Shown here: positions 12,937 through 47,622 of the stretch, one piece after another | Layout of the letters: each line of letters starts with the position of its first letter | Numbering within the stretch: position 1 is the stretch's first letter | Source: Candidatus Komeilibacteria bacterium CG11_big_fil_rev_8_21_14_0_20_36_20 | Lineage (GTDB): Bacteria; Patescibacteriota; Patescibacteriia; UBA1558; GWA2-36-10 | Reading direction: 5' to 3' | NCBI GenBank assembly: GCA_002787405.1 | Contig: PCWQ01000008.1 | Span: forward strand, 1-52,123 | Length of the DNA: 52,123 nucleotides | Notes under the pieces: model-generated | What the model saw: the letters and a program-made list of their open reading frames with translations, nothing else | Databases searched by the model: none | Told to the model about the DNA's origin: nothing | Program-made: the position numbers and the translations under genes

Positions 12937-14205
12937 ATGAATTTATTTTCCAGTCACCTTAGCTACTTAGGCATTGATGTTGGAACCTCTAGCATTAAGA
13001 TGGTTGAACTTGAAAGTTATAAGAATCAAGCGCGGTTAACAACTTATGGATATGCTGATGTAGCCACTAATATTTTACGTAGTAGCACCGATAAAAACAA
13101 TCAAATTATTGCTGATTCTATTAATACAATTGCTCAGAAAGCTAGTGTACAAACCAAGCAGGTAGTGGCTGCTTTGCCGACTTTCTCAGTTTTTAATTTT
13201 ATTGTTACTTTGCCGGTTATGTCCAAAAGAGATTTGGGTTCGGCGATTAAATGGGAGGCCAAGAAATTTATTCCAGTGCCGATTGAGGAGATGATTTTAG
13301 ATTGGAAGATTTTAAATAAAAAGAATGTTAGGTTAACTAAACCAAGGGCTTTAACTGATTTATTTGGTCAATCTTCTGTCGATAAAGATGAACAAGGTGG
13401 CAAGTCGGCTGATAAGTCGAAGAAAGAGGGTGATAAAGATCTTGATTTAGAAAGTCTGGCAGGTCAAGAAAAAACTGAAGAAAAAAAGAAGAAAAAAGAT
13501 GATTATTTTGACAAACCAGATGATAAGAAGGTTGATGTAAAATCAGAACGGAGTATTAAAAAAAATGCAGATGACAATTATCGCATTTTATTAACCGCCG
13601 CTCCTAAAAACTTAGTAGCCCGTTATATAGATATTTTTAAAAAGGCCAAACTAAATTTATTAAGCTTAGAAACAGAGGCCTTTGCTCTGTCTAGATCTTT
13701 AATTGGCAATGATCCATCAACAGTGATGGTAGTAGATATTGGAGCCACTACCGCTGATATTTGCGTAATTGAGGAAGGCGTGCCTATTTTAAACCGTGGT
13801 ATTGACACGGGTGGTGAATTCATCACTAAAGCTATTATGAACAGTTTGAACGTTAATAAAGATCGAGCGGAGCAGTTTAAAAGGGATTTTGGCTTGTCCA
13901 GCACTGGTTATAAAAATGTGCCTGATGTTATTCAACGTTCTCTTAATTCAATTATTAACGAGATTAAATATGTTTTTGAGCTCTATCAACGACAGGAGAA
14001 TTTTAAAATTAATAAAATTATTTTAACCGGTGGTAGTTCTTTCTTACCTGATTTACCGCAATATTTGTCGGATTTACTTAATTTACCAGTGATTATCGGA
14101 GATCCCTGGGATCGGGTGGTTTATCCTTTAGATTTAAAACCCGTTCTACAGGAGATTGGCTCACGAATGAGTGTGAGTATTGGTTTAGCGATGAGGGATA
14201 TTTAA
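12937..14205 (+). CDS. pilM: Type IV pilus assembly protein PilM (actin-like ATPase)
   Basis: LGIDVGTSSIKMVEL, VVDIGATTADICVIE, LTGGSSFLPDL. Confidence 0.93.
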   Translation: MNLFSSHLSYLGIDVGTSSIKMVELESYKNQARLTTYGYADVATNILRSSTDKNNQIIADSINTIAQKASVQTKQVVAALPTFSVFNFIVTLPVMSKRDLGSAIKWEAKKFIPVPIEEMILDWKILNKKNVRLTKPRALTDLFGQSSVDKDEQGGKSADKSKKEGDKDLDLESLAGQEKTEEKKKKKDDYFDKPDDKKVDVKSERSIKKNADDNYRILLTAAPKNLVARYIDIFKKAKLNLLSLETEAFALSRSLIGNDPSTVMVVDIGATTADICVIEEGVPILNRGIDTGGEFITKAIMNSLNVNKDRAEQFKRDFGLSSTGYKNVPDVIQRSLNSIINEIKYVFELYQRQENFKINKIILTGGSSFLPDLPQYLSDLLNLPVIIGDPWDRVVYPLDLKPVLQEIGSRMSVSIGLAMRDI

Positions 14206-14208
14206 TAT

Positions 14209-15270
14209 ATGGAAAATAAAAATATCAATTTAATGCCAGAAGAATTGAGGTCGAAGGAATTTAATGCTTTAAATAAAGGAAAGCAGGATTTTCAGCCGGA
14301 TTTGGTAGTCCCAGGAGCTCAGGATGAATTTAAATTAAAAAAAGACAAGGGTGAAAGTGGTGCAAAAAAGAAAAATCCTTTCTGGCGCCGATGGTTTAAA
14401 TCTTCAGCTGACACTAAAAAAATTCGTCGGCCAGAGGAACCTCTTTTAGTTAGAGAATTAAAAAAGAACGGTAAGCAGGTAGAGGAGCAGCCGGAAAAAA
14501 AGCCAGCGCCCTTACTTGCAGAGGAGCCAAAAGACAAGAAAGATGAGGTTAAAGCCATTGAACAAAAGAGTGGCCAAGATTTTTCTATGCCGGAATTGGT
14601 ACTAAAAAAGCCAGCTAAGCAGAGAGTTATTTCGACGGAAGATCAATCGGAAGATGCCTCAAAATTTCATCAGCCCACTAGCAGGGTGAGAGCTAGATTT
14701 ATAGATGAGGGTGGCGGTGTTGATCTAATACCTGTTTCTACTAAAATAAGAAGTTGGAAACAAATTATCCATTTATTGGTCATATCTGTTTTAGCTTCTT
14801 TAGGGGTTTTAGTTTTACTTTATTTAGTTTTATTTATTCAAGGGGCAAGAGTAGAGAACAATCAAGAAGCTAAAGTGCGTACTATTTCAGAGTTAGAAGA
14901 GCAGATTTTGTCTTTTGAGAAGATTAACCAAGATATTAATCAAGATGGTCAGCAGATTGAGTTGGTTTATAATTTACTAAATCGCCATATTTATTGGACC
15001 AATTTTTTTAATCTACTGGAGAAATATACGGTAGAGGAGGTTTATTATAATGGGTTGACTGCGGGCAATAATGGCGCCTTAACTCTAGATGCTGTTGGTT
15101 CTAGTTTCGATGCAATCGCCAGACAACTGAAAATTTTACAGCAGCCAGAAGCGATAGAGTTCGTTACCTTAGCTGAAATTACTTCAGCAGAGTTTAATGA
15201 TCAAGGTGTTGAATTCAGTATTACTCTTATTTTAAACCCAGATTTATTTTATTATGATAATAATGAATAG
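14209..15270 (+). CDS. pilN: PilN-like T4P assembly protein with long N-terminal cytoplasmic extension
   Basis: INLMPEE at N-terminus, second VDLIPVS before the single TM, coiled coil after TM; directly after pilM. Confidence 0.78.
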   Translation: MENKNINLMPEELRSKEFNALNKGKQDFQPDLVVPGAQDEFKLKKDKGESGAKKKNPFWRRWFKSSADTKKIRRPEEPLLVRELKKNGKQVEEQPEKKPAPLLAEEPKDKKDEVKAIEQKSGQDFSMPELVLKKPAKQRVISTEDQSEDASKFHQPTSRVRARFIDEGGGVDLIPVSTKIRSWKQIIHLLVISVLASLGVLVLLYLVLFIQGARVENNQEAKVRTISELEEQILSFEKINQDINQDGQQIELVYNLLNRHIYWTNFFNLLEKYTVEEVYYNGLTAGNNGALTLDAVGSSFDAIARQLKILQQPEAIEFVTLAEITSAEFNDQGVEFSITLILNPDLFYYDNNE

Positions 15271-15272
15271 TT

Positions 15273-15953
15273 ATGCCAGAAGAGCCAGCTATAAAATTTG
15301 AACAACCATCAGAGTTTCTAGTGATACTTAATCGTTATTTGTTTATTATCGTTGCTCTGCTCGTTATTGGTCTTTTATTTTTTGGTTATTCATTTGCTTT
15401 AAAACCAAAAATTCTAACTATCCAATCTCTAGAGGTGAAGTCTGGTGTGTCGCAGAGTGAAAAACAAGAGCAGGAGCAATTATTAGAGGATGTAAAACAG
15501 TTACAGCGTGAGTATGAAGAAATTAAAGTCAGTCGGGCTAGCGATTTAGCGCGGCTAAAAGAAATAGTTCCGGAAGATCCGGCGATCGCTGAATTATTTG
15601 TGGTGGCTGACCGATTAGCTCAGCAAAATGGTTTTCAATTGGTATCTATAGATGTGAGTGATAATTCTCCGGATTCTAATAGGCAGAAAACAGCTAAAGA
15701 AGAAGAGCAGACTACGCAGACAATAGCAGAAGAGTTAGGACTTAAGTCTCTTTTGATTAATCTTTCTTTACTTAGTTTGCCTTTGGAGAATTTTGAAGAT
15801 GGAAGTTCTTATGATGCGTTGAAAAATTATATAGTTGCCATGGAGAATTATTTGCGTCTGATGGATATTCAAACTGTCACCTTTGATGAGTTAAGCTCTG
15901 ATAGGGAAGAGTCATCTTCTTTTAATTTTAATATAATAACTTATTATCAATAA
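15273..15953 (+). CDS. pilO: PilO-like T4P assembly protein
   Basis: Position after pilN, single N-terminal TM, coiled coil, then alpha/beta domain. Confidence 0.68.
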   Translation: MPEEPAIKFEQPSEFLVILNRYLFIIVALLVIGLLFFGYSFALKPKILTIQSLEVKSGVSQSEKQEQEQLLEDVKQLQREYEEIKVSRASDLARLKEIVPEDPAIAELFVVADRLAQQNGFQLVSIDVSDNSPDSNRQKTAKEEEQTTQTIAEELGLKSLLINLSLLSLPLENFEDGSSYDALKNYIVAMENYLRLMDIQTVTFDELSSDREESSSFNFNIITYYQ

Positions 15954-15958
15954 TAACT

Positions 15959-16285
15959 ATGGTCGAAAGAAGATTATTAATTAGTGTCTTAGGCCTGTTG
16001 GCGGTGGTGGCTATTGTTGGCGGTTGGTGGCTATTTAATATAACTACTTCACAGCCGACAGATGTGACTTTTGATTTAGTACAGTTAGAAGATTTGAAGC
16101 GTATAGAGAGTACTAAGAAAATGGCTCGAGATAATATTAGATATTTTTTGACTACTAATATTTTTGAGAAAATATATAATAGTGAGCAATATAATAGTTT
16201 AGGAATGTTTGATATTGATATCAGTTTAGATCATGTTGGGAATTCTGAACCATTTATTCCTCTAAATTTTGAGGGATCAGAATAA
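15959..16285 (+). CDS. Small single-TM protein in the T4P operon, unknown function
   Basis: ORF with N-terminal TM (LLISVLGLLAVVAIVGGWWLF), 5-nt gap after pilO, followed by pilB. Confidence 0.6.
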   Translation: MVERRLLISVLGLLAVVAIVGGWWLFNITTSQPTDVTFDLVQLEDLKRIESTKKMARDNIRYFLTTNIFEKIYNSEQYNSLGMFDIDISLDHVGNSEPFIPLNFEGSE

Positions 16286-16301: not shown

Positions 16302-18038
16302 ATGGCGCCTATAGATATAACTAGGTTTTTAAATTTTTTGAGAGAGAAAAATTTTATTAATGACGAACAATATAGTAAGTTTACTAAGGAGAAGTTTAAT
16401 TCTTTTTCCGAAGTTGAGAAATATATTCGTCGTCTTGTTTTGATTTCCGATGAAGATTGGGCTCAAGCTAAGGGAATTTTTTACGAGATTGATTATGCTA
16501 ATTTGATAGGTCGGAGTATTGACGCAGAAGTTTTAAACATTTTACCGCAGGATCTGTCTGAAAATTATCAGTTAATAGTTTTTTATAAAGAAGGCGACAT
16601 TATTGAAGCAGGTTTGGTAGATCCGACAAATTTTAAAGCCATTGAGGCCTTAAATTTTTTAGCTCGCAAAAACAGGTATAAGGTTAAATATCACATCATC
16701 TCTTTTGACAGCTATCAAGCTGCTTCCAAACAATATGAGAGTTTAGGAGAAGAAGTTGGCGAGGCCCTGGATACAGCGGAAGAGATTTTTGCCCCCCAAG
16801 AAGCCCTTTTAGATAAAGATAAAGACGTGGGTGAGGTGGTTAAAAGTGCTCCTGTTTCGAAGATTGTAGCAGTTATTTTGCGTCATGCTATTGAGGGACG
16901 CGCTTCGGATATTCATATCGAGCCAGCTGGCAATCAGAGTAAGGTTAGATATAGAATTGACGGTGTGTTAAATACTACGATTGTTCTACCTATTTATGTC
17001 CATTCAGCTTTAATTTCCAGAATCAAGGTGATGGCTAATTTGAAAATTGATGAAACTCGCATACCGCAGGACGGTCGTATTCGAATGGCTATTCATAAAA
17101 AGGAGATAGACTTTCGTGTTTCAACAATTCCCTTAATGAACAATGAGAAGGTAGTTATGCGTATTTTAGAGACGCCGGAAAAGGCGCCAAAATTTGGTGA
17201 TTTGGGATTTCGGGGATTGCAGGCAAAGATTATGGAAGAGAATGTTAAAAAGCATCATGGCCTGTTTTTATTGACCGGTCCGACTGGGTCTGGTAAATCA
17301 ACTACTTTGTTTGCCGCTCTTAGTTATTTAAACAGCGATGAAGTCAATATTGCTACCTTAGAGGATCCGGTAGAATATTATATTCCGGGAGTAAATCAGT
17401 CGCAAGTTAGGCCAGAAGTAAACTTTACTTTTGCCACTGGGCTACGCGCTTTATTGAGGCAAGATCCTGATATTATCATGGTTGGTGAGATTCGTGACAA
17501 TGAGACAGCTGAGTTAGCTATTCATGCTGGCTTGACCGGTCACTCTGTTTTAAGTACCTTACATACTAATGATGCGATGGGAGCAGTGCCCCGTTTATTT
17601 GATATGCACGTTGAGCCGTTTTTATTATCTAATACTTTAAATGCTGTTGTGGCGCAACGTCTGGTCAGGAAAATATGCGAGAAGTGTAAGGTTAAGTATG
17701 ATGTGCCATCAGAGATAAAACAGCAAATTTTAAAAACTCTGGAAGCTGCACCCAAGGAGGCGCTTTATACGGATATTAATTTTAAAAAATTACAGTTTTA
17801 TAAAGGTAAGGGCTGTTCTAATTGCGGTAATATTGGCTATCGGGGACGTTTAGCTATTGCTGAGGCAATTGATGTTAACAGAGGAATACAAAAGATTATT
17901 GCTAAGGGATTTGATCGGGATGCGGTGGAAGAAGAACTAAAAAAACAACATTTTATGACCATGGAACAGGATGGTATCATTAAATCTTTATTAGGTGAAA
18001 CAACAGTAGAGGAGATTATTAGAGTGAGCAAAATATAA
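16302..18038 (+). CDS. pilB: Type IV pilus extension ATPase PilB
   Basis: Walker A LLTGPTGSGKST, Walker B DPDIIMVGEIRD, LSTLHTNDA, zinc CEKC...CSNC. Confidence 0.95.
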   Translation: MAPIDITRFLNFLREKNFINDEQYSKFTKEKFNSFSEVEKYIRRLVLISDEDWAQAKGIFYEIDYANLIGRSIDAEVLNILPQDLSENYQLIVFYKEGDIIEAGLVDPTNFKAIEALNFLARKNRYKVKYHIISFDSYQAASKQYESLGEEVGEALDTAEEIFAPQEALLDKDKDVGEVVKSAPVSKIVAVILRHAIEGRASDIHIEPAGNQSKVRYRIDGVLNTTIVLPIYVHSALISRIKVMANLKIDETRIPQDGRIRMAIHKKEIDFRVSTIPLMNNEKVVMRILETPEKAPKFGDLGFRGLQAKIMEENVKKHHGLFLLTGPTGSGKSTTLFAALSYLNSDEVNIATLEDPVEYYIPGVNQSQVRPEVNFTFATGLRALLRQDPDIIMVGEIRDNETAELAIHAGLTGHSVLSTLHTNDAMGAVPRLFDMHVEPFLLSNTLNAVVAQRLVRKICEKCKVKYDVPSEIKQQILKTLEAAPKEALYTDINFKKLQFYKGKGCSNCGNIGYRGRLAIAEAIDVNRGIQKIIAKGFDRDAVEEELKKQHFMTMEQDGIIKSLLGETTVEEIIRVSKI

Positions 18039-18052
18039 ATAATTTTAAACAT

Positions 18053-18433
18053 ATGAAGAATTATAAAATACTGATTGTGGAGGATGATGAATTTTTACTG
18101 CAGATGTATACGACTAAGCTGAATCTGGAGGGTTTTAAAGTTTTAGGTACACCCAGTGGTAAACAGGGGTTAAAGATGGCTAAAAAAGACACACCAGATC
18201 TTATTTTATTAGATTTAATGTTATTGGAAATGAATGGTATTGAGGTTTTAGAGAATCTTAAAATAGATGATAATACTAAGAATATCCCGGTCATTATTCT
18301 GACTAATTATTCCCAGAAAGAGAATATTGACCGTTGTTTGGAGTTAGGGGCAGATGATTACTTGATTAAAGCTCATTTTGTTCCTTCCGAAGTCATTGTT
18401 AAAATCAAGAAGATTTTGTCATCAGAAAATTAA
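18053..18433 (+). CDS. Stand-alone response regulator receiver (CheY-like)
   Basis: ILIVEDDEF, phosphoacceptor LILLDLML, ILTN, LIKAH; no output domain. Confidence 0.92.
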   Translation: MKNYKILIVEDDEFLLQMYTTKLNLEGFKVLGTPSGKQGLKMAKKDTPDLILLDLMLLEMNGIEVLENLKIDDNTKNIPVIILTNYSQKENIDRCLELGADDYLIKAHFVPSEVIVKIKKILSSEN

Positions 18434-18464: not shown

Positions 18465-19529
18465 ATGTCGGACACTTTGTTGATTAATAATATTTTAAAT
18501 GCTGCTTCAGAGAGAAAAGCAACGGACGTGCATTTAATTGCCGGTAGCAATCCAGTTATTAGAGTGGATGGTCGTTTGGTGACTTTAACCAAAGAACAGG
18601 TTTTAACTCCTGATCATTTGTTAAATATTGCCAATTTATTTTTAAGCAAAGAAGACTTGGATCGTTTGTCCAAAGAAAAAGAGATAGTCACTATTTATAA
18701 CTGGGCTAATCGGTCACGTTTTCGAGCTAAAGTTTTTTATCAAAAAGGATATCTAGCAATTTCTCTACGTTTAATACCAGCTTTTATCCGTTCCCCTAAA
18801 GATTTAGGCGTGCCTTCGGTCATCACTCAGCTATTAAGTAAAGATAAAGGATTAATTATTGTCGCCGGACCTTATGGTAGCGGACGTTCAGCCACTGTTG
18901 CTGGATTATTAGAAACATTAAATCAAAATAAAGGAGTTCATATTCAGACTTTAGAAAACCCAATAGAATATTTATTTTCCAATAACCAGTCTATTGTTGA
19001 GCAAAGACAGGTTGGTCGCGATACAGCTAGTTTTATTAAGGGGTTGAGGGATATTTTTGATGAAGACGTTGATGTTGTTTGTGTTAGTTCTATGCAAGAA
19101 GAGGGTATTCAGGAGGTTGTTCTAGAACTGGCGGAAAGCGGCAAACTGATGATTGTGGTGATGGACACTGATTCAGTGATATCAACCTTAGAGGAATTTA
19201 TAGTTAATTTGTCGGCTAGTAAAAGAGATTGGGGACAAAGTTTGCTGTCGGAAGTTTTATTAGGAATTTTGGTGCAGAGATTATTGCCGAGGATTGGTGG
19301 TGGTTTAACTTTAGCCACGGAAGTCTTAACTATGACTTCGGCTGTAGGCGCTAGCATCAAAGAAGATCGCCTTTATCAGTTAAATAGTATTATGCAGACC
19401 TCTCGGGATGAAGGCATGATGAATCTTGATAAATCTCTAGAAGAGTTAGTTAATGTGGGTGAAATTACTTCTGAAGATGCCAGTAAATATGCTCTGGTCA
19501 CTAAAGCATTTAAACAAAATTATAGATAA
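18465..19529 (+). CDS. pilT: PilT-like ATPase paralog with degenerate catalytic motifs
   Basis: ATDVHLIAGSNPVIRVDGRLV matches the PilT N-domain; P-loop position reads GPYGSGRSAT; C-terminal SIKEDRLYQLNSIMQTSRDEGMMNLDKSL is PilT-like. Confidence 0.85.
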   Translation: MSDTLLINNILNAASERKATDVHLIAGSNPVIRVDGRLVTLTKEQVLTPDHLLNIANLFLSKEDLDRLSKEKEIVTIYNWANRSRFRAKVFYQKGYLAISLRLIPAFIRSPKDLGVPSVITQLLSKDKGLIIVAGPYGSGRSATVAGLLETLNQNKGVHIQTLENPIEYLFSNNQSIVEQRQVGRDTASFIKGLRDIFDEDVDVVCVSSMQEEGIQEVVLELAESGKLMIVVMDTDSVISTLEEFIVNLSASKRDWGQSLLSEVLLGILVQRLLPRIGGGLTLATEVLTMTSAVGASIKEDRLYQLNSIMQTSRDEGMMNLDKSLEELVNVGEITSEDASKYALVTKAFKQNYR

Positions 19530-19534
19530 AATAT

Positions 19535-20743
19535 ATGGCTATTTATAATTATCGAGCTAGAGATCAACAAGGTAGAGTCACTGCCGGAGCAGTAGAGGCT
19601 CTTACTGAGAATGAAGCTGCTGAATTATTAAAAGATAGAGGGCTATTTGTTTTGTCTTTGAACAAAACCAGCAAGAGAAAACGTCAGGGGTTGAATATTA
19701 ATATTGGTCGAGTCAAACAAAAGGATATAGTTATTTTTTCTCGTCAGTTGTCAGTGATGATTTCCGCTACAGTACCAATTGTTCAGTCTTTGCGGATTCT
19801 AGCCCAACAGACTTCCAACCCTCTTTTTATTGAGAAGATTTCTGAAATGGCTGATGATGTAGATGGTGGTATGAAGCTCTCCAGCTCCTTGGGAAAACAC
19901 GAAAAAGTCTTCAGCCGTTTTTATGTGGCGATGGTTAAATCTGGCGAAACATCAGGCAAACTAGATGAGGTTTTGCAGTATTTAGCTGATCAGATGGAAA
20001 AAGATTATGATTTAGTTTCTCGGATTAAGGGAGCTATGATTTATCCGGTTTTTATTGTTGTTGGTATGATTTCGGTCGGTTTCATAATGATGGTTTTTGT
20101 GGTGCCAAAAATGACGGCCATGTTGAAAGAAACCGGCTCTGAATTGCCGTTTTTAACCAGAGTTTTAATTTTTATCTCCGATTTCATGAAAGATAATTGG
20201 ATTTTTATCTTAATTGGTTTAGTTGTCTTGATAGTATTATTTAAATTGTGGGTTAAATCTAAGGCCGGACAAATAGCTTGGGATTCTATTAAAATCAAAA
20301 TTCCTTTGTTTGGAACCTTATTTAGAAAAATATATATTATTCGCTTTACTCGCGGTTTGGCCACTTTGATTTCCGGTGGTGTCCCTATTGCCAAGGCCTT
20401 AGGAATTACGGCCGAGGTTGTGGATAACAAAGCTTATAAACAATTGGTTCTAGATACAGTGGATCAAGTAGAAGATGGTAAATCAGTGGCAGCTTTGTTT
20501 GCTACTTCCGATTTAATGCCGAAAATGCTTTCCCAAATGATGATTGTTGGCGAAAAAACAGGCAGATTAGACACTATTTTAGAGAAATTAAGCGATTTTT
20601 ACAGTCGAGAAATTGATAATCTGGTCGCTGGACTAACTTCTTTAATTGAACCCTTGATTTTAATTATCATGGGTGTGGGAGTAGGCGGGATGGTGGCGGC
20701 TATTATGTTACCGATGTTTAAAGTAGCCCAAGGTATGGCTTAA
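19535..20743 (+). CDS. pilC: Type IV pilus inner-membrane protein PilC
   Basis: T2SF fold: FSRQLSVMISATVPIVQSL, VKSGETSGKLDEVL, GEKTGRLDTILEKLSDFY. Confidence 0.95.
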   Translation: MAIYNYRARDQQGRVTAGAVEALTENEAAELLKDRGLFVLSLNKTSKRKRQGLNINIGRVKQKDIVIFSRQLSVMISATVPIVQSLRILAQQTSNPLFIEKISEMADDVDGGMKLSSSLGKHEKVFSRFYVAMVKSGETSGKLDEVLQYLADQMEKDYDLVSRIKGAMIYPVFIVVGMISVGFIMMVFVVPKMTAMLKETGSELPFLTRVLIFISDFMKDNWIFILIGLVVLIVLFKLWVKSKAGQIAWDSIKIKIPLFGTLFRKIYIIRFTRGLATLISGGVPIAKALGITAEVVDNKAYKQLVLDTVDQVEDGKSVAALFATSDLMPKMLSQMMIVGEKTGRLDTILEKLSDFYSREIDNLVAGLTSLIEPLILIIMGVGVGGMVAAIMLPMFKVAQGMA

Positions 20744-20776: not shown

Positions 20777-20889
20777 TAGATATATAATAATTAATTAATA
20801 ATTCTCAAGTGTTTCTTATAGGTTAGAGCTTTAGGAATTCCCAGCTTTAATCAGCAATTAAGATGCTTGATAGAAAGGGAGGTGACAAA

Positions 20890-21306
20890 ATGAAAAACAA
20901 AAGAGGGTTTACATTAGTTGAATTGCTAGTAGTCATAGCAATCATCGGTATCCTATCATCCGTGGCTATTGTTAATTTGAACAGCGCCAAACAAAAAGCG
21001 CGAGCTGCCAGCGTTCAAGCGGCTTTAAGCCAATTAACTACAGCAGTTATAATTTGTCATGATGATAATCTTAACTTAACGCCTGATGGTGGAACCCCAG
21101 CTGCAGTCTGTGATGGAGAAGTTGGTGATGTGCCAGCAGTAGGTAGACCGATTTGCGCGGGCTCTACAGCTAACTGGCCAACTATTGATACTACTTTTAC
21201 TTATTCAGGAGCATGTGACTCAACTATTGGTACTAGTTGGAGTTTTGCCGCTAGTGATGGCACTAAAACAGTGACCTGTACTCAAACCGGATGTGCTATA
21301 TCATAG
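20890..21306 (+). CDS. pilA: Type IV pilin (major pilin candidate)
   Basis: MKNKRG^FTLVELLVVIAIIGILSSVAIVNL prepilin; SD GGGAGGTGACAAA before ATG 20890; own promoter and terminator. Confidence 0.9.
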   Translation: MKNKRGFTLVELLVVIAIIGILSSVAIVNLNSAKQKARAASVQAALSQLTTAVIICHDDNLNLTPDGGTPAAVCDGEVGDVPAVGRPICAGSTANWPTIDTTFTYSGACDSTIGTSWSFAASDGTKTVTCTQTGCAIS

Positions 21307-21333
21307 TAGGTAATTAAAAACATATTTATTAGC

Positions 21334-21363
21334 AAAAAATCTCTCTTTCTTGGGGGATTTTTT
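21334..21363 (+). terminator. Rho-independent terminator after pilin 1
   Basis: 12-bp stem AAAAAATCTCTC / GGGGGATTTTTT with TTTCTT loop. Confidence 0.8.
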
Positions 21364-21436
21364 GTTGTTGATGAAATATTTTAGTTTTTGTGGTATAATA
21401 CAGTCATTATAATTTATATTCACACTAACACACTAA

Positions 21437-21910
21437 ATGAAAAATAAAACTTTTCGACAGAGTTCTCTTCAAGTCCGATTCTCAGAGCCGAAGGCAGAGC
21501 GAGTAGGGTTTACATTAGTTGAATTGCTAGTAGTCATAGCAATCATCGGTATCCTATCATCCGTGGCTATTGTTAATTTGAACAGCGCCAGAGAAAAGGC
21601 ACGCACAGCGGCTTTAGAGCAAGCTTTAGGCGCCGCTATACCTGGTGCTGTTTTTTGTATTCAATCGGATGATAATTTACTAGATGACGCTAATAGTCCT
21701 TGCAGCACTAGTTTCCCCCCGGCCGGAACTACTTGGCAGTCGGGTGATGATATGTGTAGCGGAGGTCCACTGTGGCCCATTCTTCCTGACGGGGCAACTC
21801 CTCTTACTTGTGGCAGTAACATCAATACTGGTTATTTTGCTTTTGCCGCCCAAAGTGTTGACGGGGTGATAGTTGCTTGCACTAATAGTCAGGGCTGTTT
21901 TGAGTGGTAA
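21437..21910 (+). CDS. Type IV pilin 2 with extended leader
   Basis: Leader MKNKTFRQSSLQVRFSEPKAERVG^FTLVELLVVIAIIGILSSVAIVNL; TATAAT at 21394-21399. Confidence 0.87.
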   Translation: MKNKTFRQSSLQVRFSEPKAERVGFTLVELLVVIAIIGILSSVAIVNLNSAREKARTAALEQALGAAIPGAVFCIQSDDNLLDDANSPCSTSFPPAGTTWQSGDDMCSGGPLWPILPDGATPLTCGSNINTGYFAFAAQSVDGVIVACTNSQGCFEW

Positions 21911-22384: not shown

Positions 22385-23164
22385 ATGATAGTAGTTTTTG
22401 TCTTTATTTTAGGGTTATTTGTCGGTAGTTTTTTGAATGTGGTTATTTACCGCCTTCATCGGCAAGAATCTTTTGTTAAAGGATTTTCTAAGTGTTTATT
22501 CTGTGGTCACCGGCTTTACACTAAGGATTTAGTGCCTTTATTTAGTTATTTTTATTTAAAAGGAAAATGCCGTTATTGTCGGCATCGTTTCTCTCATCAA
22601 TACCCTTTAGTTGAATTAGCCACTGCTTTCTCTCTATCTCTTATTTTTATCACCATCTCACCTAGTTTTGATTTCTATGCCCTACAACCAGGTAATTTAC
22701 TGCAATTATTAAGTTGGTGGGTTATAACTTCTTTTTTAATAGTGATTTTCGTTTATGATTTAAAATATTATCTAATTTTAGATATTGTTATTTTCCCTAT
22801 AATTCTTTTTAGTCTAGTGGCTAATATATTTTTAGGTTATAATGTGGGCGAATTATTATTGGCGGCTATTATTGGAGGAGGTTTTTTTGGACTGCAGTTT
22901 ATTTTATCAAAAGGCCGTTGGATTGGTGGTGGCGATATTCGTTTAGGTTTTTTAATGGGTATCATTTTGGGTTGGCCCCATATTTTTACAGCTTTATTTA
23001 TTGCTTATATCATAGGTAGTTTAGTTAGTATTTTTCTGCTGATAGCTGACAAGAAAAAATGGGGCGATAAAATTCCTTTTGGCACATTTTTAACTTTAGC
23101 CACTTTTATTACTTTGTTATATGGCGATAGATTGATAGATTGGTATTTATCATTATTTATATAA
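22385..23164 (+). CDS. pilD: Prepilin peptidase / N-methyltransferase PilD (A24)
   Basis: GSFLNVVIYRL, CLFCG...CRYCR zinc motif, YDLKYYLILD, GGGDIRLG. Confidence 0.95.
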   Translation: MIVVFVFILGLFVGSFLNVVIYRLHRQESFVKGFSKCLFCGHRLYTKDLVPLFSYFYLKGKCRYCRHRFSHQYPLVELATAFSLSLIFITISPSFDFYALQPGNLLQLLSWWVITSFLIVIFVYDLKYYLILDIVIFPIILFSLVANIFLGYNVGELLLAAIIGGGFFGLQFILSKGRWIGGGDIRLGFLMGIILGWPHIFTALFIAYIIGSLVSIFLLIADKKKWGDKIPFGTFLTLATFITLLYGDRLIDWYLSLFI

Positions 23165-41568: not shown

Positions 41569-42120
41569 TTAGCGGACGCTGATAAAAGTGTTTAGATTTT
41601 GTTGTTTATAGCCATAAATATCTTCTGGCTGGCCGATAGTTAAGATAAGGTTTAGGTTTATACCTTGATTGTCATTACCATAATTGTCCGAAATTGGTGT
41701 TAAAACTAAGTCAGAGATTCGGGTCAGATTAGTGTTAAGAATAATCGGATCCGCCGTTGATTGTTCAGGGAATCCTTCTCCCAGGTCGTGAGTTTCGCGA
41801 TAAACCAGATTATCTGATTCGACAGTTAAGCTGAAGCGCGTAGAAGTTGAAGAATAAAAAAGCACTTGTTCTAGGGCCGGATTGGCATCTTCAATATTGT
41901 CAACATTATGAATACGGTTGCTGACAAAATTTAAAATAAAGCGAGTGTCATGTTGGACCAAATCAGAAACCTTGAGTCGTCTTTTAACATTAAAACTGTT
42001 TGTTACTAGACTACTGATGACCAACAATAACATGCTGGTAATAAAAAGATAAACCAGTATTTCAATCAAGCTGAAACCAGTTTTATTCTTGGTGATTGAT
42101 ATTTTTTTGCTGATTATCAT
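41569..42120 (-). CDS. PilW/GspJ-like minor pilin
   Basis: KTG^FSLIEILVYLFITSMLLLVISSLV. Confidence 0.83.
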   Translation of the reverse strand: MIISKKISITKNKTGFSLIEILVYLFITSMLLLVISSLVTNSFNVKRRLKVSDLVQHDTRFILNFVSNRIHNVDNIEDANPALEQVLFYSSTSTRFSLTVESDNLVYRETHDLGEGFPEQSTADPIILNTNLTRISDLVLTPISDNYGNDNQGINLNLILTIGQPEDIYGYKQQNLNTFISVR

Positions 42121-44018
42121 GGGTAAATGGAATAACTAATAGTTACTTCTTCTAAGATCGGTACTTGGATATCGGCGCTACTGCTTAAAAATAATTTATA
42201 ACGCAGATATCTTTTATTTAGATGACTAGTGTAATTAATAAATTCTTTAGCGGCTATAGTATAATAAGTGGAGCTACTACCGTCTGGTCCGATAAAATTC
42301 CAAGGACCAGCTTGATTGTCACTAGTGGCTATTTGAAAACGAATATCGGTATTAAGTGGCTCGGAGCCAGTCCAACTAATCCAGTTATAGGCAATGGTTT
42401 CATGGCCAGTATCAAAAGTAGAGGATTCCAAAATGCCGCTGGAAGCATAGCCGCAGTCATCAACTTCTGTGGAGATAATGAAAAATTCATTTTGATTACT
42501 AGAAGTAGCGGCATAAATAACTGAACAATTAGCTGACATACCTAAGATATGTCCATTTAAATCAAAACCAGATACTTTATTAATCGTGGCCGGGTAGCTG
42601 ACGTCAATCACTACTAATTCTTCATTAAGAAAATTAGTACCGAGTAAAGCATAAGGTCCGACAATAGCAAAAGAGTAAATCATCTCTCCAGTTTCATAGG
42701 AGCCGATAAAAACCGGATCGGTTGGGTCTGAAATTTCAAAAATAAAGAATTCTGGCCCGGAACCGTTGTTTTGAGTGGAAATATAAGCCCGGGTGCCGCG
42801 GACATAGACGTCGGTGCCCTTCAGGGAGCCGGGCAGATTATATTCACCGATTGGTTGCAAATTCGCTGGATTGGTGACATCAATAATCTGCAATTCTTTA
42901 TCACTATCTTCAGTGGCAATATAGATATTATTTTCTGATAAAAACAATTCTTTAGCATCATCATCGACATCAATAGTATCCAGGAATTGAGGAGAAGTTG
43001 GCTGAACAATACTAAAAGAATATAGGTCATCATCTTGGATGATATAAAGTTCATTTTCATTAACTACTATATCTTGAGCATTATTATTACTAGGTAGATT
43101 ATAAGCAGCAGTGATAAAAGGATGATGGCTGTCTGACACATCGACGACTTGTAGTTCACTATTGTCTTTTTTGGTAGATAAATATGCGTACTGATTTTCT
43201 ACCACTACAGAAGTAACCCCGCTACCGATATTGAGCGAAGACAGTTGAAAAGGATGATAGATATCGTTGACATCTAAAATGTAAAATTCTGAACCATCAG
43301 AGTTATTCTCGGTGACCAAATAGGCCAGGCCATTTAATTCATAGACATCATTGTCATCAAAGTTACCAGGTGTGTCAAAGACACCAGTGGTAGTGGCTTG
43401 GTTCCAATCCAAAAAACCGGACAAAAGAGTGGTAATTCCAGGAACACTAATATCAATCCCAGAATCTTTAGTATAAAAACGTGTTTCATCAGCCCAGTTG
43501 TCTTGTCCGGCTCCACCAACCCAGTTAGTCTGTACCCAGCGATTGGCTTCCCAGCGGTAGAGATAAGTCTCCAGCTCTTCTGTTTGTAATTTACCGACTT
43601 GATTTGTCCACTCCAATCGGGCGGTTATTTTTTTGGTATCAGGGTCAAAAAATCCCATTTCCATTATTGGTCCGTAGACCGTTCCATTAGTGGAGTTGGC
43701 TCTATAGACATTATCAATGACAATGGTGCGGGTGAATTTGCCGTTAATCAAGTCACTACCGGCTATTAAATTCCAAACATTTCCTTGAATTGTTGGATAA
43801 TAATCTCCGGCAGCTAAATCATTCCAATTTATTAATTTTATTGCTTCCATTGCTTCGCTGGCGTAGAGGAGAGCTTGGGTACGCTCTTCGTTTAGTTTTC
43901 CTAATTTACTGTTAAAGGCAGTTAAACCAAAAATAAGAACAATAATGACGCTCATGAATGAGATGGCCACTAGTAATTCTACCAAAGAAAAGCCCGGTTG
44001 ATTATTTTTTGTCTTCAT
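42117..44018 (-). CDS. Giant minor pilin with LVIVD-type beta-propeller
   Basis: NQPG^FSLVELLVAISFMSVIIVLIFG prepilin; repeated LQVVDVSDSHHPF, LQIIDVTNPANLQPIG, LVVIDVSYPATI. Confidence 0.85.
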   Translation of the reverse strand: MKTKNNQPGFSLVELLVAISFMSVIIVLIFGLTAFNSKLGKLNEERTQALLYASEAMEAIKLINWNDLAAGDYYPTIQGNVWNLIAGSDLINGKFTRTIVIDNVYRANSTNGTVYGPIMEMGFFDPDTKKITARLEWTNQVGKLQTEELETYLYRWEANRWVQTNWVGGAGQDNWADETRFYTKDSGIDISVPGITTLLSGFLDWNQATTTGVFDTPGNFDDNDVYELNGLAYLVTENNSDGSEFYILDVNDIYHPFQLSSLNIGSGVTSVVVENQYAYLSTKKDNSELQVVDVSDSHHPFITAAYNLPSNNNAQDIVVNENELYIIQDDDLYSFSIVQPTSPQFLDTIDVDDDAKELFLSENNIYIATEDSDKELQIIDVTNPANLQPIGEYNLPGSLKGTDVYVRGTRAYISTQNNGSGPEFFIFEISDPTDPVFIGSYETGEMIYSFAIVGPYALLGTNFLNEELVVIDVSYPATINKVSGFDLNGHILGMSANCSVIYAATSSNQNEFFIISTEVDDCGYASSGILESSTFDTGHETIAYNWISWTGSEPLNTDIRFQIATSDNQAGPWNFIGPDGSSSTYYTIAAKEFINYTSHLNKRYLRYKLFLSSSADIQVPILEEVTISYSIYP

Positions 44019-44623: not shown

Positions 44624-45862
44624 TTAATTAGCGAAGGTAAGGGTTAATTCATACATTGGTCCTAAAACTGACAGAGCTATAAAACCAACGGCTACGCCTA
44701 CAGCAATTAACAGCACTGGCTCAAGGATAGTCGATAGATTGGCTAAGACATTATTAACCCGTTCTTCATAATATTTAGATATTTTTTTTAAGATATCTTC
44801 TAATTCGCCGGTTTTTTCTCCTACTTGGCATAACTGAATAGCTAGGGAAGGGAAGAGATGAGGGCGTTCACTCATGGCTGTATCTAAAGATAATCCTCTT
44901 TCCAGTTCTTTAGTCATAGCTAGAGTTTCTCTCCTGTATTTTAAATTATTTAATGTTTTTGAGGTCACTTCTAGCGATTTTATAATATCCAAACCTGAGG
45001 CGAGGAGAGAGTTTAAATTTCCGGCAAAACGGGTGAGAGCTAAATCGCCAGCAATGCGACCAATGAAGGGTATTTTTAAAATAAAAAAATGTAGCCATAA
45101 TTTTGGCTTGGGCAATTTAAATATAATTTTGAATAATATTATTACAGCAATCAAGCCACCTAAAACATACCAATAGTAACTTTGTAAAAATTCATTTAGA
45201 AATTGAACTGCCACTAAAACAAAAGGTAGCTTAACTTTTGCGTCTTGGAAGATTGTGATTAGTTGGGGAAAGACAAATAAAGCTAAAAGCAAACTGACAG
45301 CCACTAAGGCAATTAAGACAATTATTGGGTACATTAAGGCGCCAATAACTTTACTGCGTAGTTTTTTTTGTGATTTTAGATTGTCAGCTAGACGTCGGAG
45401 AGAGTCTGGCAGCATACCAGTGTGTTCGCCAACTTCTACCGTAGCAATCATTATGTCGGAAAAAATTTCAGGATATTTTTTCATACCTTTAGACAAAGCT
45501 TGCCCATTTTCTACATGGTTTTCCAGATACAATAGGATCTCTTTGAGATATCTATTCTTTGTTTCCTTGCTTAATGTTCGCAGAGCGGGGGCTAAAGGCA
45601 AACCCGCTTTAAGCATAGTAGATAGATTATCAACAAACATCATCTTGTTAGTCAGAGTGATTCTAGACAAGATTAGTTTACTTTTTTTATATTTTTTAAT
45701 GGGACTGATGTCTACTTTTTCTTTTTGTTTTGGGAGAGTCGGAGAAGCTGTCTGATTATGACTATCTTGGTAGTCTATGTTTTTATATTTCTTCGGCTTT
45801 TTATTTTCCGAAAGTTGATCAGTATCATCAATCTCGTTGTGTTTATGATCCAGATACTTCAT
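44624..45862 (-). CDS. pilC: Type IV pilus inner-membrane protein PilC (second copy)
   Basis: FVDNLSTMLKAGLPLAPALRTL, VEVGEHTGMLPDSLRRLA, GEKTGELEDILKKISKYYEERV. Confidence 0.94.
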   Translation of the reverse strand: MKYLDHKHNEIDDTDQLSENKKPKKYKNIDYQDSHNQTASPTLPKQKEKVDISPIKKYKKSKLILSRITLTNKMMFVDNLSTMLKAGLPLAPALRTLSKETKNRYLKEILLYLENHVENGQALSKGMKKYPEIFSDIMIATVEVGEHTGMLPDSLRRLADNLKSQKKLRSKVIGALMYPIIVLIALVAVSLLLALFVFPQLITIFQDAKVKLPFVLVAVQFLNEFLQSYYWYVLGGLIAVIILFKIIFKLPKPKLWLHFFILKIPFIGRIAGDLALTRFAGNLNSLLASGLDIIKSLEVTSKTLNNLKYRRETLAMTKELERGLSLDTAMSERPHLFPSLAIQLCQVGEKTGELEDILKKISKYYEERVNNVLANLSTILEPVLLIAVGVAVGFIALSVLGPMYELTLTFAN

Positions 45863-45891
45863 TGTTTGATTTTTGTTTTAATTAACTTATT

Positions 45892-47622
45892 TTATTCGCG
45901 TTTAATGCTCAATACCTCTTCAATTGTGGTGATTCCGGTTAGGGATTTTTGCATACCATCTTCAAAGATGTTGATCATTCCTTGTGCCATAGCCATTTTT
46001 TCTATTTCATTAGAAGGAGAGTTTTTAATAATACAGTTTTGAATAACCTCGCTGTTTTCTAGGATTTCCATAACTGCCACTCGACCTTTGTAGCCAGAGC
46101 CGTTGCATCGTTCGCATCCTTTACCATGATAAAAAGTAAGGTCGGCGAATGAAGTAGAGTTATCTTCAATAATTTTTAGTTTTTTAAAACGATGAAACAT
46201 TTGTTCTAAATTAAATTCTTTGCCCAGAACGTGCAGTTCATTAGCCGAAAGTTTAAAACTCTGGATACAATCTTGGCAGATTTTCCGGAGTAGACGTTGG
46301 GCCACTACGACATTGAGGGTAGAGGCCACTAAATATGGTTCAACGCCCATATCCAAAAGTCGTGGTGGCACTCCGGCGGCGTTGTTGGTATGGAGAGTAG
46401 AAAGGACCAAGTGTCCAGTTAGTCCGGCTCGGACGGAAATAGCCGCAGTTTCTTTATCTCGGATTTCTCCTACCATGATAATATCAGGGTCTTGTCTTAG
46501 GAGGGCTCTTAAGCCATTAGCAAAATCATAACCAGCTTTAATATTGACCTGAGTTTGATTAACGCGGTTGATACCATATTCAAGTGGGTCTTCAATAGTG
46601 CAAATATTAGTACCTTCTGTGTTTAAAATATTGATTAAAGCATAGAGGGTGGTAGTTTTACCGGAACCGGTCGGTCCGCAGACCAAAATCATACCAAACG
46701 GTTTTTTTAACTGTTTTTTCATTAGTTTTATATTCTGTTCAGAGAGTCCAATATCGCCCAGAGTAAAATCCTGGGCTTCGTCCGTCATCAATCTCATTTC
46801 CACTTTTTCACCATAAAAAGCAGGAATAACTGACACTCTAATTGATTCTTCTTCTTCATCTAGTTTAAAAGAAAAGCGTCCGTCTTGCGGCACCCGATGC
46901 TCATCGGTTCTCAAGTTGGATAAAATTTTGATGCGAGCTACCATAGCATTATGGACAGACAAAGGCATCTCCACTTTATCATGCAGTTCTCCGTCAACAC
47001 GGAAACGGACTACCACTGCGTCGGAGAGGGCTTCAATATGAATATCTGACGCCCGTTCAAATAGAGCGGCTTCTAAAATAGCGTCAATAATTCTAATAAT
47101 CGGCAGCTCCATTTTATTTGGCGTATCTGGAGATTGAGGGATTTTAGTTTCCAGAATTTTTTTGATTTCTTCCTTAATATTTTTTTGGTAAAGACGCGAG
47201 GCAGAGCGGAATCCTTTATAATTAGTGATATAGATATCAATTTTTTTCTTAGTGGCCTGCTTGATCATCTCCAGACTTTCTTTATTAGTCGGATTGACAA
47301 AAGCTACTTTTAATTTTCTACCTTCCAATGCAAAGGGTATAGCTTTGGCGGCACGAATTGTTTTTTCATCCAACTCTTCCAAAATTTCCGGTTTTAGTTT
47401 TTGTTTACGCAGATTAATGTAGGGTATTTTTAACTCATCTCCGATTAATTCATATAAATACCGCTCATTCAAAAAACCCCGTTCAATCAGTACGTCTTCT
47501 ATGCCGCGTCGCCGGCGGTTAGCATTTTTTTTCATCTGATGCCAGTCAATTTCGCTGACGATTTTATTTTTTAACAAAATTTCCTTTAATTTTTCAGGGG
47601 GGATTGGTAAAAATGATGCCAT
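45892..47622 (-). CDS. pilB: Type IV pilus extension ATPase PilB (second copy)
   Basis: GPTGSGKTTTLYALINIL, TIEDPLEYGI, DPDIIMVGEIRDKETA, CQDC...CERC. Confidence 0.95.
   Translation of the reverse strand: MASFLPIPPEKLKEILLKNKIVSEIDWHQMKKNANRRRRGIEDVLIERGFLNERYLYELIGDELKIPYINLRKQKLKPEILEELDEKTIRAAKAIPFALEGRKLKVAFVNPTNKESLEMIKQATKKKIDIYITNYKGFRSASRLYQKNIKEEIKKILETKIPQSPDTPNKMELPIIRIIDAILEAALFERASDIHIEALSDAVVVRFRVDGELHDKVEMPLSVHNAMVARIKILSNLRTDEHRVPQDGRFSFKLDEEEESIRVSVIPAFYGEKVEMRLMTDEAQDFTLGDIGLSEQNIKLMKKQLKKPFGMILVCGPTGSGKTTTLYALINILNTEGTNICTIEDPLEYGINRVNQTQVNIKAGYDFANGLRALLRQDPDIIMVGEIRDKETAAISVRAGLTGHLVLSTLHTNNAAGVPPRLLDMGVEPYLVASTLNVVVAQRLLRKICQDCIQSFKLSANELHVLGKEFNLEQMFHRFKKLKIIEDNSTSFADLTFYHGKGCERCNGSGYKGRVAVMEILENSEVIQNCIIKNSPSNEIEKMAMAQGMINIFEDGMQKSLTGITTIEEVLSIKRE

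Follow-up and report, generated by a model that had tools for sequence, protein, structure and literature searches.

The window, a stretch of 52,123 nucleotides from a Candidatus Komeilibacteria genome, carries a type IV pilus gene cluster on its forward strand. The cluster comprises pilM-, pilN- and pilO-like genes and a small gene encoding 108 amino acids (12937-16285), all named by position and sequence, followed by the extension ATPase PilB with all of its motifs intact (16302-18038), a single-domain CheY-like receiver with an intact phosphoacceptor Asp54 and acidic pocket (18053-18433), the open reading frame analyzed here (18465-19529), from now on referred to as pilTx, and the platform protein PilC (19535-20743). 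Further downstream are two pilin-like genes, recognized in the sequence by their N-methylation-type N termini (20863-21910), and a PilD-like prepilin peptidase assigned from sequence and position (22385-23164). PilB belongs to the same operon as pilTx and is encoded two genes upstream of it. The order commonly found at related loci is pilB, receiver, pilTx, pilC, pilins and pilD. Of 134 locus records, a set that contains duplicates, about 111 have the receiver next to pilTx and about a sixth lack it, so that an obligate link between the two genes can be rejected as a universal feature. The 75 distinct receiver sequences found beside pilTx all keep Glu10, Asp11 and Asp54. Another pair, made up of a PilB/GspE-type ATPase and a PilC/GspF protein and constituting a second pilus or secretion-like system, is encoded on the minus strand of the window (44624-47622), near an LVIVD/beta-propeller protein with a weak N-methylation motif (42117-44018); four PilB/GspE proteins are encoded in the whole genome.

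The pilTx frame is uninterrupted and encodes a protein of 354 amino acids. Solved PilT structures align with it end to end, and residue-by-residue alignment with A. aeolicus PilT (PDB ID: 2EWV, E 4e-69) confirms the register of its motifs. The protein scores 62 bits against Pfam T2SSE and 290.5 bits against NCBIfam TIGR01420, the PilT/PilU family of type 4a pilus ATPases, which is below the curated cut-off of 319.1 bits; its orthologues score 255-300 bits within the order and 345-369 bits in two other members of the class. The structure predicted by AlphaFold2 from 26 orthologues (pLDDT 90.7) represents a complete PilT fold, with Geobacter PilT4 (6OJY) as the top structural match (TM up to 0.91), and both the N2 domain and the RecA-like domain are present in the alignment as well as in the predicted structure. 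Judged by sequence, pilTx is a PilT by descent.

The catalytic motifs of pilTx are degraded. Its Walker A stretch reads GPYGSGRSAT (residues 135-144; GPYGSGRS at 18867-18890) and departs from the consensus GxxxxGK[ST] through replacement of the Lys by Arg141. The Asp-box stretch TLENPIE (residues 162-168; LENPIE at 18951-18968) has lost its Asp (N165) with both glutamates kept. The Walker B region (DVDVVCVSSMQEE, residues 201-213; DVVCVSSMQEE at 19071-19103) has lost the catalytic Glu and the MRD, with SSMQE in place of GE[MV]RD. At the His box, VMDT is found instead of TLHT and the histidine is lost (VMDTDS, residues 232-237, 19158-19175). Lys, Glu and His are therefore all three gone from the window protein, while the AIRNLIRE-like C-terminal motif is kept in part as AVGASIKE (19341-19364).

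To place these losses in context, 96 distinct pilTx orthologue sequences from about 39 families of the class, mainly from loci with the order pilB-CheY-pilTx-pilC, were compared with 62 canonical PilTs. Among the 31 genomes of the order that are at least 80% complete, 27 carry the gene, and the class sample adds at least 82 more genomes with it; the closest named records are Candidatus Komeilibacteria and Parcubacteria MAGs. Every class orthologue retrieved is degraded (96/96). The MRD is kept in none, the first His of the His box likewise in none and the second (position of His234) in 2/96, as opposed to 62/62 canonical PilTs. The Walker A Lys is present in 22/96 and Arg in 71/96, Arg141 being invariant in the window's order (30/30 sequences), and the Asp-box Asp is kept in 12/96. 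A Glu aligns with the catalytic position in 33/96, so that absence of this residue from all class members is rejected. Lys and Glu are both kept in 14 of the 96, some of which could, going by these residues, have weak ATPase activity, and no orthologue combines Lys, Glu and His. Canonical PilTs keep the same sites nearly without exception, and in this alignment the shared degradation is far beyond chance. Four loci of family f55 (L114, L115, L133 and L135) encode a degraded PilT outside the pilB-pilC neighborhood, directly upstream of a pilM-like gene, and these copies keep the Walker A Lys and the catalytic-position Glu.

At 20/20 loci outside the class, the operonic PilT has canonical motifs. 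This state agrees with the canonical ATP sites described for TM7x in a recent Patescibacteria survey, which by BLAST rated pilT as well conserved (PMC12206443). Fixed degradation of the operonic PilT within the class is well supported. No report of class-wide PilT degradation was found in the open-licence literature searched, which is weak evidence of absence. The dN/dS of pilTx is 0.03-0.09 in closer pairs with measurable dS, dS being saturated in the most distant pairs, and purifying selection on pilTx is strong. Assembly error, or decay of a relict gene, could account for a protein in which every catalytic motif is changed; however, frames are intact, identical sites are degraded across about 39 families and dN/dS is low, making this explanation extremely improbable, and local decay or sequencing error is rejected on the basis of the orthologues and the dN/dS values. 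Catalytic residues have thus been lost in a conserved and selected clade, and the motif loss in all class orthologues retrieved, together with intact frames and low dN/dS, argues for pilTx being a pseudo-ATPase.

The residue losses are not spread evenly over the nucleotide site. The window protein keeps E164, E168, the P-loop residues G135/S139/G140/S142, the Walker B Asp D203 and the N-domain Arg R85, and its losses fall in the gamma-phosphate sensing and switch regions. Across the class, E164 is kept in 93/96, E168 in 95/96 and Arg85 in 95/96 orthologues. The P-loop glycines, the Walker A Ser/Thr and a Walker B Asp or Asn are kept as well. The counterpart of E168 in Geobacter PilT is Glu164, which contacts Mg (PMC6858323). 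As the Mg-contacting Glu, the P-loop glycines and the inter-subunit Arg are kept, it is plausible that pilTx binds ATP without going through a normal hydrolysis cycle. Several residues of both the open and closed subunit interfaces of Geobacter PilT are also lost, which suggests that a pilTx ring may form in another way or with another partner. A sequence-only reading of this DNA had given the motifs exactly as described here, had recognized an intact PilT-like frame and had proposed a pseudo-ATPase, a proposal now strengthened by the class-wide degradation, purifying selection and complete predicted fold. Its statement that every catalytic element is altered is correct for the motifs but too broad for the residues just listed. 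Canonical motifs in close relatives, named in that reading as the observation that would speak against it, were looked for, and the orthologues proved to be degraded.

The window does not encode a second PilT, as had been noted from its sequence, and a genome-wide search located an intact copy with all motifs on another contig (G000:C16:25119-26141; the window is contig C9). The absence of an active retraction motor suggested earlier consequently does not extend to the organism, and a genome devoid of such a motor is rejected. Intact PilT co-occurs with pilTx in 100 of 107 pilTx-bearing genomes: in the order, an intact-type PilT is found in 27/27 (one partial and one split over contigs), and in the class outside the order in 73/80, two of them only as partial genes, with these 73 judged by score and motifs read only in fetched loci. 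No intact PilT was found in the other seven of these 80 genomes. One exception to co-occurrence is G063 (99% complete; locus L134), where a degraded operonic PilT is present and an intact one was not found. Neither pilB nor pilC adjoins any stand-alone intact PilT that was examined in the class. Directly downstream of the intact pilT on contig C16, a protein with cyclic-nucleotide-binding and GAF domains is encoded (L005:2526-3482); such a gene lies beside intact pilT in the window's family (this genome and 11 relatives fetched), is absent at the intact-pilT loci fetched from the other families of the order, and is a candidate regulator of the live motor. Outside the class, PilT matches inside open frames of 545-770 amino acids (G317, G337, G417, G456, G483, G513 and G521) suggest that PilT is fused to additional sequence there, or that the two are read as one frame.

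In a PilT tree built with the motif columns removed and rooted on PilTs of other phyla, an outgroup that is itself poorly resolved, the degraded PilTs form one clade (100/100) nested within the operonic PilT lineage (97/95), and the stand-alone intact PilTs form a separate clade (100/100) outside that lineage. Based on this topology, the operonic gene most likely started to lose catalysis a single time, close to the base of the class, and a second PilT most likely took over the motor role, or already had it, as the operonic copy lost catalysis. Duplication within the class as the origin of both copies is disfavored by the tree but possible, as a common clade of both is not rejected (AU p 0.089). 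In five genomes of the order pilTx was not found, and these have no close relative of its cognate pilC either: four carry only distant PilC homologues (26-36% identity) and one carries none.

In V. cholerae, PilU needs PilT to be present, PilT inactivated in Walker A or Walker B still supports PilU-powered retraction, and two-hybrid assays show that inactivation of Walker A leaves the binding of PilT to PilU and PilC in place (PMC6762196, PMC6821130). We hypothesize that the Patescibacteria pair may be a natural, fixed form of this dead-PilT state. The vertically inherited operonic PilT has lost the catalytic switch, namely His box and MRD loop, and in many lineages also the Walker A Lys and the catalytic Glu, while its predicted PilT fold and a large part of its nucleotide pocket are preserved. 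The pseudo-PilT, possibly ATP-bound, would dock at the PilC platform as a coupling or gating element, the separately encoded intact PilT would hydrolyze ATP for retraction, and pilTx may take its input from the receiver encoded immediately before it. We infer that pilTx lacks ATPase activity, binds nucleotide, docks at PilC, couples to the distal PilT and takes input from the receiver. That pilTx is a fixed pseudo-ATPase with a docking or coupling role at PilC, and that retraction is powered by the distal PilT, is a view that we hold with about equal belief and doubt; the fuller proposal of a split motor, in which the operonic PilT docks or gates under control of the receiver and a separate PilT burns the ATP, is put forward more tentatively. 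The complete fold, the canonical operonic PilTs outside the class, the co-occurrence with intact PilT, the single degraded clade, the missing close pilC relatives in genomes of the order without pilTx and the V. cholerae precedent make this the best explanation, whereas the 14 orthologues with Lys and Glu, the seven genomes without a detected intact PilT, the receiver gaps, the interface losses and the uncertain origin of the intact copy count against it.

The main rival to a split motor is a brake, in which an ATP-locked pseudo-PilT occupies PilC and blocks retraction, so that pili stay extended until the receiver releases it. Retention of the P-loop, the Mg-contacting Glu and the inter-subunit Arg alongside loss of the catalytic Glu and His box would fit such a state, as would the invariant phosphorylation site of adjoining receivers and the hyperpiliation of V. 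cholerae PilT E204A, interpreted as ATP-locked (PMC6821130). However, ATP binding may be weakened by the substitution of Arg for Lys, the receiver is absent at a number of loci, and the near-universal company of intact PilT fits a joint role equally well as an opposing one; we regard a brake as rather unlikely. A PilC brake and a receiver-coupled switch had both been among the suggestions of the sequence-only reading, and either may apply.

The operon shared with PilB and PilC could instead point to an aid in pilus assembly unrelated to retraction, and PilT is reported to promote MSHA pilus extension (PMC9815625). This putative link to PilB sits poorly with the high co-occurrence of intact PilT, leaving an assembly role improbable. 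Slow or unconventional ATPase activity, in which Arg would stand in for Lys and the role of the catalytic Glu would fall to a different acidic residue, would be in keeping with the non-random conservation of Arg in the order and with the orthologues that keep Lys or a catalytic-position Glu, but it appears distinctly improbable: Lys, Glu and His never occur together, MRD is lost throughout, the window protein lacks all three residues at once, and PilT E204A or H229A abolishes twitching in P. aeruginosa (PMC6858323).

Host attachment, movement and DNA uptake all depend centrally on type IV pilus retraction, and Patescibacteria of this class seem to have converted a former motor into a non-catalytic component of the pilus machinery. 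Homology counts of pilT in published Patescibacteria surveys include genes unlikely to be motors. A natural and long-lived pair of dead and live PilTs also makes the non-catalytic role of PilT, and with it the question of why PilU needs even a dead PilT, testable.

Compared with known systems, pilTx resembles PilT (TIGR01420) in operon position, length, N- and C-terminal domains and predicted fold, and belongs to the lineage of operonic Patescibacteria PilTs; it differs in lacking the Walker A Lys, catalytic Glu, MRD and His box and in its score below the family cut-off. It resembles PilU as a second PilT-like protein beside an intact PilT, possibly with interdependence between the two. However, the Walker motifs of PilU are intact and it is the ATPase of PilU that counts, whereas pilTx is degraded and is itself the operonic PilT orthologue, the live pilT being unlinked. 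The earlier comparison to a PilU-like partner is thus apt only with the roles reversed, the operonic orthologue being dead and the stand-alone copy live. The closest parallel in function may be the Walker-dead V. cholerae PilTs (K136A, E204A), non-catalytic proteins able to act with an active paralogue; those are engineered laboratory mutants, whereas pilTx, for which such coupling is inferred here, is natural, ancient and class-wide.
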